From the NCBI GenBank assembly GCA_937870915.1, contig CALMZQ010000155.1, positions 1-64,000 on the forward strand: a stretch of 64,000 nt of DNA, given 5' to 3'. Below are positions 28,656 to 35,834 of the stretch, one piece after another. The stretch's first letter is position 1, and every line of letters begins with the position of its first letter. Source of the DNA: an uncultured Ignavibacteria bacterium. GTDB taxonomy: Bacteria; Bacteroidota; Ignavibacteria; Kapaibacteriales; Kapaibacteriaceae. The translations under genes were made by a program, and so were the position numbers. The notes below the pieces were generated by a model. The model saw only the letters and a program-made list of their open reading frames with translations, was not told where the DNA came from and searched no databases.

Positions 28656-30044
28656 GTGAATGCAGAGCTCATCATGCTGGGGGGTGCCGAGGAGATCGGT
28701 GCTAACTGTTGTTATCTGAATTTGGATGGGACGGGTATCTTCATTGATGCCGGACTCCACCCCAGAGATCGGACGGAAAAAGCGTTTCCTGCAGTAGACC
28801 TGATCGGCAACCGGGAGACAGACGTCCTCCTTACAACACATGCCCATACCGATCATATTGGGGGGCTGCCATACGTGATGCGGAGGTTTCCTCACCTGCG
28901 TCCAATCATGACCCATGCAACACGCGATCTCAGTCACGTAATGTTGCCCAATGGTGCAAGACTTCTCAAAACGGAGATTTCAGATCACGTTCCGAAGGAG
29001 TGGTTGGAGTTCTACCACCGCGATGTAATCGAGCAATTGCGATATGCGTTTGAAGCTATTCCGTACGGAGAGCCCCTTACCCTACGAGGGTATAATGGCA
29101 GGTCGGACGTGAAGGCTACGTTTCATTGGGCAGGACATATCCTAGGCTCTGCTGGCATCAGCCTTGCGAACAAGGGCTTCAGCATCCTCCATACCGGGGA
29201 TGTGCAGTTCGATCATCAAACAGTGATCCCCAAGGCTACGTTGCCCAGACATCATGTGGATGTGTTGATCACCGAGGCTACAAACGGAGCATTGGAGGAA
29301 ATGTCTACGATTGCCGCCGAGACAAAGCGTCTGGCTGTCTTCATCAATTCTATCAGTGAACGCAACGGGTCGGTTCTCATCCCTTGTTTCGCTCTTGGGA
29401 AGATGCAGGAGATGCTTGCACTTCTGTATTCCATGATGCGGAAGGGCTCAATTCCGTATCTGCCCATCCACACAGGGGGCATGGGGACTCGCATCAGTAA
29501 GATATACGACCAATACTGTTACAGCGATCCTATGAGACGTCCGGGATTTGAAATCTCTGATGTGCCTCAGGAACCGATTCATCGGTTTGACCTCGACACA
29601 GGGTCGTACATGAAGACACCATCCATTGTTTTAGCATCTTCCGGAATGGTAAATCCGGGTACGATCTCATTCAACCTCGCCCAGCGCTGGATGTCGAAGC
29701 CAAGGTTCGGTATTGCCTTTATCGGATTCCAGCATCCGTCGAGTCCGGGATATCAGTTAATGAATTCAAAGCCGAAGACGCCGTTCGACCTCGCAGGCAC
29801 GCGTGTGAGCCGTACATGCGAGATCGAACGGTTTCGCTTCAGTGCCCATGCTTCACGAGAGGGTCTGGTCTCCCTAGCAATGGATGTTCGCCCGTCTACC
29901 GTGGTGGTCATGCATGGCGAGCCTGATGCATGTGATGGGCTTGCACTTGAGATCCGAGAACGACTTCCCGGCACACGCATCATTATTCCGCGGCTGGGGG
30001 TTCCTTATGTTCTTGATTCAACACAAGAGTATCTTAGCGTTTGA
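28656..30044 (+). CDS. beta-CASP metallo-beta-lactamase-fold nuclease-like protein
   Basis: About 462 residues from GTG 28656 (TTG 28647 or ATG 28674 are alternatives). The MBL signature 'TTHAHTDHIGGL' (HxHxDH) lies near residue 60, 'GHILGSAGI' near 165, 'LHTGDVQFD' near 180, then a beta-CASP insertion (about 205-380) and closing 'FRFSAHASREGL' and 'VVMHGEPDA'. This is the CPSF73/RNase-J-like architecture of RNA-processing nucleases, with Zn-binding His and Asp residues present. Shorter than RNase J and without its C-terminal domain, it belongs to the YsgA/Ysh1-like bacterial group. The substrate is probably RNA (inference). The 3' end overlaps the convergent 30034 gene by 11 bp. Confidence 0.85.
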   Translation: MNAELIMLGGAEEIGANCCYLNLDGTGIFIDAGLHPRDRTEKAFPAVDLIGNRETDVLLTTHAHTDHIGGLPYVMRRFPHLRPIMTHATRDLSHVMLPNGARLLKTEISDHVPKEWLEFYHRDVIEQLRYAFEAIPYGEPLTLRGYNGRSDVKATFHWAGHILGSAGISLANKGFSILHTGDVQFDHQTVIPKATLPRHHVDVLITEATNGALEEMSTIAAETKRLAVFINSISERNGSVLIPCFALGKMQEMLALLYSMMRKGSIPYLPIHTGGMGTRISKIYDQYCYSDPMRRPGFEISDVPQEPIHRFDLDTGSYMKTPSIVLASSGMVNPGTISFNLAQRWMSKPRFGIAFIGFQHPSSPGYQLMNSKPKTPFDLAGTRVSRTCEIERFRFSAHASREGLVSLAMDVRPSTVVVMHGEPDACDGLALEIRERLPGTRIIIPRLGVPYVLDSTQEYLSV

Positions 30045-30666
30045 TCATGAATGGTCGTGTACTGGTTTGACCATGTACACGGTACATCACAAGCGTATAA
30101 GCGCCACTTGGCAGACTCTGTGTATCGATCTCAACCGTTGACGTTGCAGGGTGGATGGATTGATTCCAATAGAGCTGCCCGGCAACATCACGAACTTCAA
30201 GTTGTGTTACGTCCTCAACCGACCATGTGGCGCGAAGCCTATCCGTTGCCGGTTGTGGTTCCATAGACACGGCGAAACTCACGGATGTATCGGAATCAAC
30301 TGTGCTGATGACCGGACGAGATGGCACAATGGTCGCAAATCCGTGACTGTACAATGCAATGTTCGAACGCACTTCGTCGCGAACCACAAAACGATAGTGA
30401 CGTCCCGACGGAAGATCCTCGGGGAGAGTCCACACATACCGTTTGTTGATAGCTGGCACATGAGACGCAATCTGTGTTCGAACAGCTCGCTCTCCGTCCC
30501 AAAGTTCTAGGCAGACACGTTGTGCAGTGATAGCGTCATCCCACGTTATCGTGATCGATGTTCCTGCAGTAAGGGGCTGTTCAGCTGCTCCACCTGACGG
30601 CCAAACATGGCCGTACACGTTGTGGAACATCATGGTGATCGTAATGATCAAGAGAATGGTTTTCAT
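30034..30666 (-). CDS. small secreted protein with Kre9/KNH-like domain and short T9SS-like tail
   Basis: 210 residues. Signal peptide MKTILLIITITMMFHNVYG, mature N-terminus HVWPSGG. Residues about 20-115 (PSGGAAEQPLTAGTSITITWDD... YVWTLPEDLPSGRHYRFVVRD... YSHGFATI) follow the pattern of the Ser-Thr-rich Kre9/KNH family beta sandwich found in many secreted bacterial and fungal wall proteins. The C-terminus (LEVRDVAGQLYWNQ... GAYTLVMYRVHG... FMIKR) has the strand pattern of a T9SS domain. Its ATG overlaps the upstream TGA (ATGA). Last gene of the three-gene 34.9-30.0 kb operon. The ligand is unknown. Confidence 0.75.
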   Translation of the reverse strand: MKTILLIITITMMFHNVYGHVWPSGGAAEQPLTAGTSITITWDDAITAQRVCLELWDGERAVRTQIASHVPAINKRYVWTLPEDLPSGRHYRFVVRDEVRSNIALYSHGFATIVPSRPVISTVDSDTSVSFAVSMEPQPATDRLRATWSVEDVTQLEVRDVAGQLYWNQSIHPATSTVEIDTQSLPSGAYTLVMYRVHGQTSTRPFMIKR

Positions 30667-31655
30667 CGTTGAATCTCCTCTGTGATAATGATCGGATGAA
30701 GTGTTGTGTGCTGTCCGTCCCGAATCACCACGGCGTACAGTCCGCTCATAAGATTCTCTACAGTGAAAGACGTTTCTGCTTCCCGAACAGCAGATTCGTG
30801 GACGCGTCTACCATGTACGTCGTAGATCGAAGCGGTGATTGGTGTGTGGACATTGCTGCGAATACGAATTGTTGATGCATGATGGTGAAATGTCCAAGGC
30901 GATTCGGTTACTGCATCTACGCTGGTAGACGTCTTTCTGAAGTGCCCGATGTATTCAACTGTTCGGCCTACAGGCCAACAGAGAGAGTCCACAAACTGCC
31001 TGCTTGCAAATGGATCCGGAAGAAGATCTGCGTCCGTTGTTGTCCAACGTTCAAACGTGTATCCCTGGCCCGTGAATCCTGTGAGCATCATCCCATCATG
31101 TAGGGAATGATCTTTGTTTTCATAGATCGGCGCAACAAGGCCAAGATCCGTAATGTCCTTTCCGGTCTCACTATCCACGGCGCGTGCATAGGCTTTGAAC
31201 CCGGTTGCCTTCGCAAAGAAGACCCGAGTGGTGTCATACTCTCCGTCTCCATGCCAATAGTTGCAGTACATCTCTATCACATACGTGATCATCACACCAT
31301 TTTCATCTGCTATGGGCAAAGTGGCGGTAGGTATCACTGTCAGCTGTGAAGGGCCAACACATCGAACGGTAATCGGAACTTCGTCGATAAGCTGCAGACC
31401 GTTGACACGGCGCAATCGAAAGAGCTTCGCGCATATCGTATCGGTGCTGGACGAGGAGCGTTGCATCGCGCGGGTATAGCCGATACGCAACGTGTCCATA
31501 CATCGTGGTATGTATCCGTTCCAGCTATCCACTGGACGTAGGTCAATGAAGGCTTCGTGGCACGTTACAAAGTCTTCCCATTGACACAGTGCTTCCTGTA
31601 TGCCCACGCTGGCAATAGCCATGGTAAGGAGAAGTGTTCGGACGGTCCGTTTCAT
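30663..31655 (-). CDS. secreted protein with T9SS-like C-terminus
   Basis: 330 residues from ATG 31655 (TTGAGGGCACA upstream). The signal peptide runs MKRTVRTLLLTMAIASVGIQEALC with mature Gln-Trp-Glu. The body contains a fold reminiscent of Listeria/Bacteroides repeat-like modules (GFTGQGYTFERWTTTDADLL) that recurs in the larger neighbour. The end 'ITASIYDVHGRRVHESAV... GLYAVVIRDGQ... IIITEEIQR' fits a T9SS sorting domain with a few extra residues. It is 26 bp downstream of the 1070-aa gene and coupled to the next one by ATGA. Function unknown. Confidence 0.75.
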   Translation of the reverse strand: MKRTVRTLLLTMAIASVGIQEALCQWEDFVTCHEAFIDLRPVDSWNGYIPRCMDTLRIGYTRAMQRSSSSTDTICAKLFRLRRVNGLQLIDEVPITVRCVGPSQLTVIPTATLPIADENGVMITYVIEMYCNYWHGDGEYDTTRVFFAKATGFKAYARAVDSETGKDITDLGLVAPIYENKDHSLHDGMMLTGFTGQGYTFERWTTTDADLLPDPFASRQFVDSLCWPVGRTVEYIGHFRKTSTSVDAVTESPWTFHHHASTIRIRSNVHTPITASIYDVHGRRVHESAVREAETSFTVENLMSGLYAVVIRDGQHTTLHPIIITEEIQR

Positions 31656-31681
31656 TGTGCCCTCAAGGTATTGTTGTGCAA

Positions 31682-34600
31682 TCACCGAACAACGGCTCGC
31701 GTTACAAACCACTGTCCGCGCAACCGATAGGTCACATTCTCATGACGGGCTTCTATCCTTGGTGCTATCGCACTACGCATTCCCCAAAGATTTTGTCTGT
31801 CTTCTAGGAAGGACGCCTCTCCCAAAGGTTCATCTTGTTCATCGGGAGGCAGAAGAGCTCCTATCATGTCCGCACCGGTCTTCACGATATCCGGAAGGAT
31901 GGTCCGCCAATCAAGATCCTTTTTTGAGCCGCTGTTTCCGTATTGCTCCGTCCGCTTCTTCACTGCTTCGATCACATCACCGAGACGGTTTACTAGGCAG
32001 TCGTTTTCGTCCTTACAATCTTCATCCCACGATGACATCGACCACCATGCCAGATCTGACTCACCCATCCATGCAGTTTGAAGCCAGACAACCTTATCTC
32101 CAAAGTTCAGTGGAGCGCCTTTGTCATTGTGTTCCGTTGTGCATTCGCCTTGAGCCCCTTGCTGTTGTCCACAATCGGGGATGCGGGCAAACCCTTGTGT
32201 TGTGAGGAGGGCAGCATCTTCCGCCAGATCAGCCCCATACATAGCATGGTATACCTCACCGTTATTCTCAAACGGCCAAAAGTCCCAGTCCCCGTCGAAT
32301 GCAAACGTTGCGTCGCGTAGTCGAAGGCCTAGTCCGGGCAGTTCCATTCTTCGGAGGGTAAAGAGGTGGGCATTGCGGAGATGTTCACCCGAGGCAGACA
32401 TCAGTGCGGTTGAGCACGTAACGTCAATGATTCCGCCGTGAAGAGCTTGTTTGATGGGGCTTGTGGTAGGATCGCAGATGAAGAACTCTACAATGTCTGC
32501 TGACTGTCCGTTGGCCGGAAGGAAGTTCGTGTTGCCATGAGGCCCCGTTGTGACCGTAAAGTCCAGACCGGTGGCTTGGGGATCCGAGATCAAGAAGTTG
32601 TCGAAACTCTCTGCACTGATACTTCCTGCCAATACCGAAGGTCCGTCTACCGGCATCGTGAACTTCAACTTGACGCTCGTGCCCTTTCTTGCGATGTATT
32701 CGAGATGTCTTCCACTACGGGGCTCATCAGGATCCAGATCGAAATAGGTAGCAGGGTCGTACCAACGTTCTTCAAATTTTGTACTACTGCGCTCGCCTTT
32801 GGCGTTACCTCGCACGCGGAGTCCGATGGACTCAATTCCGAAATATTGACGGAAGGCTGCTTGCGTGCGGATCTCTCGCAATCCTGTTGGTTGACCAAGG
32901 CAATTCATTCCGTCGAACTGCGCCATGTCGAAGTCCACCACCATGGTATACGTCTGCACTTTTTCAGTGATGTTCTCTACCGCGGGAATGGCATATCGGT
33001 CGATTCCGCTCCACCAGCGCCATTCTTCGCCCCGCTTGGTTGCAGCCCGCACAACGAATCGAATGTTATCGCCACACTTGAAGGCATACCGATTGTATGG
33101 CCGTGCCCCTTCACTACAGGAGATCTGAGACATCGGTTGCCAAACGAGCTGTCCATTGATGCGCTTGCGCAGCTCAACATCAACTCGTGTTTCCGGATGT
33201 GGTTGTTTGCCTACAAGGATGTTGTTTGGGTCCTCGGATCCAAGCAAGACGCGCTCGAGACGGAGTTCGATCTGTTTGCGTCGAGCATAAAACACGAGGT
33301 TGTTTTCCGGATCGAGGAGTTTGGCGGTTACACAGAGCTCGGCCCTGCCGCCATCGAACCACACCGGCGGACCGGACGAAGGATCGTGATAGCCGATGAC
33401 CTCCCAACACCGTGATGCCTGAACACAGACCGTGCGTTGTCCCTCTACCATGTCCTTAAACTCACGCTCTGTTGTGAAGGCAACCCCGTCGTCAACCTTG
33501 AATGTTTCATCTGGATCGGTATCTACTATTCGCGCAGAGAGTCTATAGATCTCCGTCCGCTGCGGATTCAGTGGTTTGAATTGGGGGTTCACGTATGTAC
33601 CCGGAACGGCCTTCAGTCCCTTCGTGGGTATCACGATCGATGCAGCCATCGTTCCGTTGATAGGCGGAAGCGATGAGCTCCACGCTGAAAAGGAATAGTT
33701 GGGCGATGGAGTGGCAACACAGTTGAGGTGGGTAGTTGCGGATGTTATACCGATGTTACCAGATGTGGTGATCTTACCCAGATGTTTACCAACCTGATCA
33801 TACACATCCATGGAACCGCCTGAATCAATCGTGAAGGCAACGTTGATTGTATCGAGATGCTCAACGATCGCAAGAATCGAGAGTGATTCCGAATACAATT
33901 GGCAGGGTATTGTTTCATCGATCCTATGAGTTGTCTTCCCATGCACCTGGGGAATATCTCTCGACTCCCATCGTACAAATCGCCAGTGCTCGGGGAGATC
34001 CGTTGGTATTGTTGCGATAAGGGGCGTGCCATCATGTATCACATTATCGACAGACGTAACAACTGTCCGGACATGGTCAGGAACGGGACGACCATCCGTT
34101 GACTTCACATCGTACGCGATCTTGCTGGCCCCGCGCACTACACCAACCACGGTTCGGTCATCATAAACATCACCGGTGAGCGTGGACATTTCGCACCGGA
34201 TTCTGATCGATGAGGAAATTGGCCAGGAGCCCTGTGGACTAATCACAACCGACGTTCTGTCCGGGGAGAGTCTACGCACTGTTTCCAATTGTCTCCATGT
34301 TCCGTCGGCGTGGAGAAGTTCAGAAAGAATCACCCGTTCCATCAATCCGGGGTAAGGAAGGGGCTCTGTGAATCGTACACAGATGTCACGAGCACAGGAG
34401 ATCACGCTCGTTGAATCCAGAGTAGTGGCAGCTACACGTGGTACGCCATGCGCTGTGGTAAAGGTGAACTCCAGCGGTGCACACATCATGCCACCCGCTT
34501 GTTGATCCAGTGCAACGTTGCGGACGATGCACCGATACGTGGTGTTCTCCAGGAGTGTCATCGGCGTCCACCTCATTGTTCGCTGGTCGTCGAACTCCGT

Positions 34601-34894
34601 TCTCCCCACTATTGCATGTTCTCCCAATCGCATTGGGTCCGTCCGTTGTGCGATGGATTCTCGCACCACCAATACCGTTGGTTCTGTAGGCCTCCAACCG
34701 GATATCTCTGCATCCGGTGCAAGGACTGTTACACTGCGGGCATCGATCGTGGCTGGAGCACGTATCACAATCGATGATGAAATAGCTACACCGTTTTGTC
34801 CGGGCTGTGGGAATACGGGTTGGAGGAGCGGTACATTCTGTGCGTGAGCACCGAGGCTCATGAGCACAACAAGGGAGATGATAATACGAAACAT
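31682..34894 (-). CDS. large secreted protein with SbsA/Ig-like N-terminal domains
   Basis: 1070 residues from ATG 34894 with GGAGG at 5 nt. Signal peptide MFRIIISLVVLMSLGAHA, mature QNVPLL. Residues about 20-120 and 150-245 look like bacterial Ig/SbsA_Ig modules (PVFPQPGQNGVAISSSIVIRAP; CARDICVRFTEPLPYPGL), often used as surface spacers. Two 'WxSxxxPxxxG' modules follow (WRFVRWESRDIP; NYSFSAWSSSLPPINGT), like the one in the next gene. The C-terminal 300 residues are Trp/Asp-rich and unfamiliar (WDFWPFENNG, WAWMGESDLAWWSM), and no classical T9SS PNP motif is seen at the end. The leader RNA can sequester the SD (34895-34964). First gene of a three-gene secreted-protein operon. Confidence 0.8.
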   Translation of the reverse strand: MFRIIISLVVLMSLGAHAQNVPLLQPVFPQPGQNGVAISSSIVIRAPATIDARSVTVLAPDAEISGWRPTEPTVLVVRESIAQRTDPMRLGEHAIVGRTEFDDQRTMRWTPMTLLENTTYRCIVRNVALDQQAGGMMCAPLEFTFTTAHGVPRVAATTLDSTSVISCARDICVRFTEPLPYPGLMERVILSELLHADGTWRQLETVRRLSPDRTSVVISPQGSWPISSSIRIRCEMSTLTGDVYDDRTVVGVVRGASKIAYDVKSTDGRPVPDHVRTVVTSVDNVIHDGTPLIATIPTDLPEHWRFVRWESRDIPQVHGKTTHRIDETIPCQLYSESLSILAIVEHLDTINVAFTIDSGGSMDVYDQVGKHLGKITTSGNIGITSATTHLNCVATPSPNYSFSAWSSSLPPINGTMAASIVIPTKGLKAVPGTYVNPQFKPLNPQRTEIYRLSARIVDTDPDETFKVDDGVAFTTEREFKDMVEGQRTVCVQASRCWEVIGYHDPSSGPPVWFDGGRAELCVTAKLLDPENNLVFYARRKQIELRLERVLLGSEDPNNILVGKQPHPETRVDVELRKRINGQLVWQPMSQISCSEGARPYNRYAFKCGDNIRFVVRAATKRGEEWRWWSGIDRYAIPAVENITEKVQTYTMVVDFDMAQFDGMNCLGQPTGLREIRTQAAFRQYFGIESIGLRVRGNAKGERSSTKFEERWYDPATYFDLDPDEPRSGRHLEYIARKGTSVKLKFTMPVDGPSVLAGSISAESFDNFLISDPQATGLDFTVTTGPHGNTNFLPANGQSADIVEFFICDPTTSPIKQALHGGIIDVTCSTALMSASGEHLRNAHLFTLRRMELPGLGLRLRDATFAFDGDWDFWPFENNGEVYHAMYGADLAEDAALLTTQGFARIPDCGQQQGAQGECTTEHNDKGAPLNFGDKVVWLQTAWMGESDLAWWSMSSWDEDCKDENDCLVNRLGDVIEAVKKRTEQYGNSGSKKDLDWRTILPDIVKTGADMIGALLPPDEQDEPLGEASFLEDRQNLWGMRSAIAPRIEARHENVTYRLRGQWFVTRAVVR

Positions 34895-34964
34895 CACAAC
34901 CTCCGTTTGTGTGAGTGAAACATGCCCCTTTCATCGATGAAGAAAGGGGCGTAAGGAGGTTGTG
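34895..34964 (-). promoter_or_regulatory. structured leader predicted to sequester the SD of the 1070-aa gene
   Basis: Minus-strand RNA order: CACAACCUCC (34964-34955), a 9-bp hairpin GCCCCUUUC/GAAAGGGGC (34950-34924), a 19-nt link, then GGAGGUUGUG (34904-34895) directly before AUG 34894. The outer arms are perfectly complementary over 10 bp and cover the whole SD; the CCUCC arm also mimics the 16S anti-SD. The arrangement suggests translational control (switch, thermometer or protein site). The inner hairpin could alternatively be the terminator of the upstream gene, but no U-tract follows it. Confidence 0.6.
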
Positions 34965-35024: not shown

Positions 35025-35834
35025 CTACTGTACTCTTATCTGGAACATTGATGGCCAGTTTTTGCCGGTAACATAGATGGCCTTTGCAGCCGTATCATAG
35101 GCAATGCCGTTGAGTACGTCTGTGGTGGCAGTACGCGAGGAGTTTGGCAGGATACCCGTGAGGTCTATCACGCCTGTGACCTTCCCGGACGAAGGGTCGA
35201 TTCTCACAATACGATCTGATTGCCAGATGTTTGCCCAGATTTCTCCTTCGATCCATTCAAGTTCATTTAGCTGACTTACAAGAGAGCCACTTTGGGTAAC
35301 GGAAATGCTGCGCACCACGGCAAATGTTTTGGGATCGATCACCGACAGAACATTGGACCCATTACTCATAATGAGGTTCTTGCCATCATTCGTTAGACCC
35401 CATCCCTCACCGGCGTACGAGAACTTATCCAGCTCCTTCAGAGTATGGGCATCGTAGATGAATCCCGATTGGTTGAGCCAAGTGATCATATAGGCCTTGC
35501 CATTCAGCACCGTCATACCTTCTCCAAAGTACCGGTCTTCCAACTTTTCAAGTTTGCGGACCTTTCCCGACGTGATGTCTACGATTCGGATGCTCGATTG
35601 TCCATTCTGCCCGGTACTCTCCAGAAACGCCCCAGCATGAACAACAAGGCCCTGTGTAAAGGCCTTAACATCGTGTGGAAGGGTTCGGATAACCTCAAAA
35701 CCATATGAACGCACCGCTGTCTCCGATTCCGCCATAGGTAAAGGGGCTTCGGGTGGACGTTCGGTTGCCGGACGTTCTGTGGAACAAGCCGCAAGGCTGG
35801 CACAAAGAATGATTGGGAGTATTCGGCGTGTCAT
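35025..35834 (-). CDS. glutaminyl-peptide cyclotransferase (glutamine cyclotransferase family), lipoprotein
   Basis: 269 residues. Signal with lipobox 'ASLAAC' predicts an envelope lipoprotein. The body is a five-bladed propeller of the plant/bacterial glutamine cyclotransferase family: 'FTQGLVVHAGAFLESTGQNGQS', 'YFGEGMTVLNGKAYMITW', 'GEGWGLTNDG', 'LNELEWIEGEIWANIWQSDRIVRIDP' and 'VLNGIAYD...YVTGKNWPSMFQI'. It converts N-terminal Gln of exported proteins to pyroglutamate, and most secreted proteins in this window carry Gln at the predicted mature N-terminus. It is divergent from the L,D-transpeptidase gene, with a 14-bp inverted repeat between them. Confidence 0.92.
   Translation of the reverse strand: MTRRILPIILCASLAACSTERPATERPPEAPLPMAESETAVRSYGFEVIRTLPHDVKAFTQGLVVHAGAFLESTGQNGQSSIRIVDITSGKVRKLEKLEDRYFGEGMTVLNGKAYMITWLNQSGFIYDAHTLKELDKFSYAGEGWGLTNDGKNLIMSNGSNVLSVIDPKTFAVVRSISVTQSGSLVSQLNELEWIEGEIWANIWQSDRIVRIDPSSGKVTGVIDLTGILPNSSRTATTDVLNGIAYDTAAKAIYVTGKNWPSMFQIRVQ

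Follow-up and report, generated by a model that had tools for sequence, protein, structure and literature searches.

A competence-type promoter predicted to overlie an RNA helix at the ribosome-binding site of a secreted-protein operon in the Kapaibacterium family

Why should the leader of a bacterial operon carry, a short distance upstream of its first start codon, a sequence perfectly complementary to its own ribosome-binding site? The question is raised by the minus strand of the window, a stretch of 64,000 nucleotides from an uncultured Ignavibacteria bacterium, where CACAACCUCC (34964-34955) and GGAGGUUGUG (34904-34895, directly 5′ of AUG 34894) pair over 10 bp without a mismatch; in DNA form, CACAACCTCC (upstream arm) and GGAGGTTGTG (downstream arm) are exactly complementary. 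The latter comprises the SD GGAGG (34904-34900) and the spacer to the AUG. Between the arms lie a hairpin with a 9-bp stem (34950-34924) and a G-poor linker (34923-34905), which leads from the hairpin to the SD; in orthologues, too, positions -23 to -12 are depleted of G. Folding of 34990-34870 yields -36.8 kcal/mol (z = -4.76; none of 200 shuffles was equally good), and when the mononucleotides of the upstream part were shuffled 5000 times, a perfect stem of at least 10 bp reaching into the SD/AUG region arose 7 times. Sequence and fold thus confirm the inverted repeat and the inner hairpin that the first-pass annotation had described.

The leader also heads, as had been proposed, an operon of three overlapping secreted-protein genes, all on the minus strand. 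The first (31682-34894) encodes a protein of 1070 residues that is restricted mostly to the Kapaibacterium family, with an orthologue in 22 of its 23 genomes; it has no sequence match in Pfam or the PDB, and its predicted structure, with a pLDDT of 53, was set aside. The second (30663-31712; 349 residues) carries a type IX secretion sorting domain (PF18962, E 1.1e-6), and the third (30034-30666; 210 residues) a Kre9/KNH-like domain (PF10342, E 2.3e-10) together with a weak sorting domain (PF18962, below cut-off). An SD-like GGAGG or GAGG is found in nearly all orthologues of the first gene, and its GGAGG is unusually strong for these genomes, since an SD-like stretch of at least 4 nt precedes only 31-42% of predicted genes in the family genomes, as sampled in genome G014 and in the window.

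Comparison of 22 leaders extracted from genomes of the Kapaibacterium family shows that compensating changes preserve the inverted repeat in nearly all of them. The paired arms differ widely in sequence and nevertheless stay complementary, as in CACAACCUCC/GGAGGUUGUG, GCGACC/GGUCGC, ACACAUGAC/GUCAUGUGU and CGACCUCCAU/AUGGAGGUCG. Pairing of the two arms of the same genome averages -19.0 kcal/mol, against -12.6 kcal/mol when arms are swapped between clades, and in 5000 permutations over 14 clades the observed value was never reached; with nine coding bases added, the figures are -21.9 (matched) and -14.8 kcal/mol (swapped). The compensatory changes that the first-pass annotation had named as its check are therefore present. 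The leaders are also unusually stable, with a mean z of -3.5 in the 22 genomes versus -0.9 for 47 ORF starts in the window, and relatives carry a hairpin of different sequence at the place of the inner hairpin. A MAFFT alignment of the leaders does not hold the helices in register.

What is conserved is a helix that sequesters the ribosome-binding site, in which the SD is not always paired. The conserved helices lie on both sides of the SD, in the SD-AUG spacer and in the stretch just upstream of the SD, and between these helices the SD of several genomes occupies an internal loop. For the SD bases themselves, the pairing probability in the leaders of relatives is not significantly above that of shuffles, and we have dropped the notion that the SD is conserved as paired. 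Of the original proposal that the leader hides the SD, what stands is the covering of the ribosome-binding site by a helix, and what does not is a pairing of the SD bases themselves that is conserved in relatives.

Since the arms covary, some RNA must contain both of them. One explanation would be a single complete leader RNA, started upstream of the arms and always comprising both, which acts as a translational switch opened by a protein, a ligand, temperature or an RNA acting in trans. The covarying helices around the SD and the stable fold in 22 genomes speak for such a leader. Against it, there is no conserved aptamer-like sequence: an Rfam scan of the leader matches no family, in line with the first-pass annotation, which did not recognise it as a known riboswitch class, and conserved sequence is limited to the linker, the SD and two promoter-like boxes, to which we now turn.

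These boxes, GTCACGTTT (34987-34979, minus strand) and CACAAC (34964-34959, minus strand), form a motif, GTCAC-N18-CAC, with the spacing of a -35/-10 layout having a 17-bp spacer. The upstream, -35-like box is conserved in orthologues, GTCAC lying 83-93 nt 5′ of the ATG in 21 of 22 (genome G001 has a second, closer GTCAC besides one at a distance within this range), and CAC or a near variant follows GTCAC at 18 nt both in the orthologous leaders and in other copies of the promoter. The upstream box is also enriched in the window's genome, where GTCACGTTT occurs 48 times as compared with 20 for the reversed control and CAC follows it at exactly 14 nt in 15 of 30 copies examined, any other spacing being found at most three times; these copy counts take in a few antisense coding copies near hflX. 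We do not count as promoters the copies of GTCAC by hflX (L134, L160, L161, L167 and others), where the conserved stretch seems to run antisense inside a coding sequence. A survey of 800 kb of G014 showed no general enrichment of GTCAC by itself in front of genes, and only 4 of 60 strict motif matches there lead into a correctly placed ORF, comEC among them. Statements about whole genomes are based on pattern searches and on sampled stretches, and start codons in the promoter survey were taken from open frames rather than from annotation.

The position of the transcription start can be estimated from genes whose start codon lies so close to the motif that they would be leaderless. Eight of these (L136, L143, L163, L183, L187, L189, L191 and L202) start 34-35 nt after GTCAC, and from the 33-36 nt range of such leaderless starts we place the transcription start of the secreted-protein operon at about 34952 (±3; minus strand). 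We infer that GTCAC-N18-CAC acts as a promoter with this start. A self-switching leader could accommodate the boxes themselves, as GTCAC and CAC might equally be read as RNA motifs, their distance to the AUG being nearly constant too; the recurrence of the motif at genes whose start lies 33-36 nt from GTCAC, however, fits a promoter and not a leader motif. In our assessment a leader of this kind is an unlikely, though the strongest, competitor. The first-pass annotation had treated the anti-SD arm as a part of every transcript and the leader as a self-contained switch. Both notions now appear doubtful, as the first six bases of that arm are the -10-like box and the start is predicted to fall downstream of the arm, within 34955-34895, the interval in which a start would, by the first-pass annotation's own account, refute its proposal.

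Two other sequence patterns were noted in the course of the survey. Copies in G014:C1, L158, L173 and elsewhere belong to a repeated element of G014 to which no gene is assigned, GTCACATTTTCTGTC followed by CACTAT and then CAATTGCTCCGGAATTCC. A different secreted-protein leader (L107, L114 and G000:C119:2130-2217) has GTCACAAYATCAC and GTGGAGG before the ATG; it is conserved in three near genomes and lacks the CAC spacing.

The genes that share the two-box motif give it a name. Among the main dprA genes of the family, GTCAC is found just upstream of or near the start in 21 of 21, with strict CAC spacing in 14, and an in-frame start follows GTCAC by 31-38 nt in 14 of 21; for comEC the same holds in 17 of 21. 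GTCAC lies upstream of comM in 18 of 21 cases, 11 of them with strict spacing where about 0.3 would be expected, while the motif is missing from all 30 dprA genes that were taken from the order's other families. We therefore call it a competence-type promoter, a class to which it is assigned by its occurrence at core transformation genes across the family. One such comM (G000:C155:88334) lies on the same contig beyond the window, ~53 kb from the gene of the 1070-residue protein. Further genes with the motif are ssb (three genomes), copies of radA, and genes for DUF2851, toxin-antitoxin systems, IS200-like transposases and secreted proteins. The transposases and toxin-antitoxin genes with this motif include those of the window's own genome; loci with IS200-like transposase, ParE-like, Phd-like, zeta-like and 23S-IVP genes are L136, L163, L190, L162, L170, L183, L187, L191 and L202, and mobile or selfish genes may be timed to competence. 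Two homologous secreted proteins from two genera (L194, and L086 near 13777 in G014), whose N-terminal part has no Pfam match, have the motif in common and represent another candidate for DNA uptake.

The coincidence of the anti-SD arm with the -10-like box leads to the reading that we favour, with a probability of roughly 0.6: a competence-type promoter and a blocking RNA helix would be laid over one another, in an arrangement like that of phage T4 late genes, such that a read-through message is silenced. Given a start at ~34952, mRNA made from this promoter would lack the anti-SD arm, and its short leader of ~58 nt would consist of the inner hairpin at the 5′ end, the G-poor linker, and an SD with which that arm could no longer pair. 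Transcription entering from the upstream gene would instead copy the promoter sequence into a longer RNA, in which the promoter-encoded arm, predicted to be present in read-through RNA only, would pair with the SD-AUG region and block translation. The 1070-residue protein would then be made mainly when its dedicated promoter fires, as is gene e of T4. Covariation indicates that an RNA with both arms matters, for which read-through from the upstream gene is the simplest source, and the helix probably serves to silence that message and not as a ligand sensor. Both the read-through and its effect on translation we infer from the DNA sequence.

The genomic setting bears on this proposal. The presumed source of the read-through RNA is the glutaminyl cyclase gene upstream (35025-35834, minus strand; PF05096, E 1.9e-96), whose end lies 37 nt upstream of GTCAC; no terminator-like site was found in between, and in 20 of 22 genomes a neighbour on the same strand lies 1-51 nt away. 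The only genome with a divergent upstream neighbour, G012, shows no arm pairing (ranks 18/21 and 20/21), an association of lost pairing with a divergent neighbour that rests on this one genome. Opening of the ribosome site in the long form is predicted to cost 8-23 kcal/mol at 37 °C, and removal of the 5′ arm lowers the mean from 14.6 to 8.8 kcal/mol. For the window's own genome the predicted decrease is only from 16.6 to 14.9 kcal/mol, perhaps owing to alternative pairing of the SD with the early coding region; this small decrease counts against the overlay of promoter and helix. The lack of significant extra pairing of the SD bases likewise speaks against it.

One may also ask if the promoter alone matters, i.e., if it is the short mRNA, headed by the 5′ hairpin, that functions, and the promoter is complementary to the ribosome site only incidentally and to no effect. 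The conservation of the boxes at fixed spacing would be explained in this way, and the leadered ssb and comM genes of the promoter class show no pairing that straddles the start, which is at the same time a point against the overlay. The swap test and the shuffles, however, reject chance complementarity, and do so also when only the bases upstream of the predicted start (positions 5-28) are considered (-12.0 kcal/mol matched, -9.3 kcal/mol swapped; 0 of 5000 permutations). Moreover, promoter and ribosome site are complementary in 12 other leadered representatives of the promoter class when these are taken together (matched -10.4 kcal/mol, mean of all mismatched pairs -6.7 kcal/mol, p < 1e-4), and this complementarity is seen among DUF2851, ParE-like and secreted-protein genes. 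We thus consider a complementarity devoid of function improbable. It is very improbable that the repeats work at the level of DNA or of transcription, as a two-box regulator site suggested by CAC repeats 21 bp (about two helical turns) apart or as a terminator or attenuator suggested by the GC-rich inner hairpin, because the arm sequences vary between clades with complementarity kept, a feature not required if a protein recognised one fixed sequence, and because the hairpin is followed by AUGUUUCAC, devoid of a U tract, with no terminator-like site found there.

In the DUF2851 genes of two genomes (L144 and L179), a hairpin lies ~29-46 nt after GTCAC, its 5′ arm spanning the predicted start and its 3′ arm or loop covering the SD; the two sequences differ (GGAACAC/GUGUUCC and GUGUAUC/GAUACAC).

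The overlay of promoter and helix invites a wider, and tentative, extension, according to which the whole competence regulon might be licensed by the start of the message: its members would either be leaderless or have a 5′ helix strand encoded by the promoter, so that read-through stays silent. If this were true, the family-restricted 1070-residue secreted protein would be a new candidate for a role in DNA uptake. GTCAC-N18-CAC is a candidate natural-competence promoter in this lineage, for which a literature search on natural transformation in Kapabacteria found no paper, and it links a secreted protein of no recognised family, as a candidate, to the uptake of DNA.

It remains to compare this locus with known systems. 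Competence promoters elsewhere include the sigma-X boxes of streptococci and the CRP-S sites of Haemophilus and Vibrio. The present promoter resembles them in serving a small set of genes that includes dprA, comEC, comM, ssb and radA, and differs in its motif, GTCAC-N18-CAC, which is found at dprA of this family and at none of the 30 dprA genes from the order's other families. Translational riboswitches and RNA thermometers likewise place a helix over the SD region, whereas here there is neither a conserved ligand pocket nor an Rfam match, and the 5′ arm is predicted to be absent from the dedicated transcript. Related in logic are transposase genes of the IS10/IS50 type, in which the ribosome site lies under a hairpin in read-through RNA but not in the transcript that the element makes itself; the likeness lies in a hairpin predicted only for read-through RNA, and the difference in that a secreted-protein gene is concerned here. 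The closest counterpart is found in phage T4. According to two reports (PMC3014915; PMC2988022), the late genes e, soc, 49 and I-TevI have helices that hide the ribosome-binding site, the SD or AUG being covered in long transcripts, and an adjoining promoter encodes the 5′ strand, such that its own transcripts are devoid of that strand and promoter switching decides on translation; for I-TevI and other homing endonucleases, a like arrangement is described (PMC2988022). The 1070-residue protein's gene has the same anatomy, with transcript starts and translation being predicted here from sequence, and while T4 employs it in late genes of a phage, we find it at a gene that is conserved on the chromosomes of an uncultured family of bacteria, with a promoter common to competence genes. 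The arrangement described for the T4 late genes would thus extend to a conserved gene of a bacterial chromosome.
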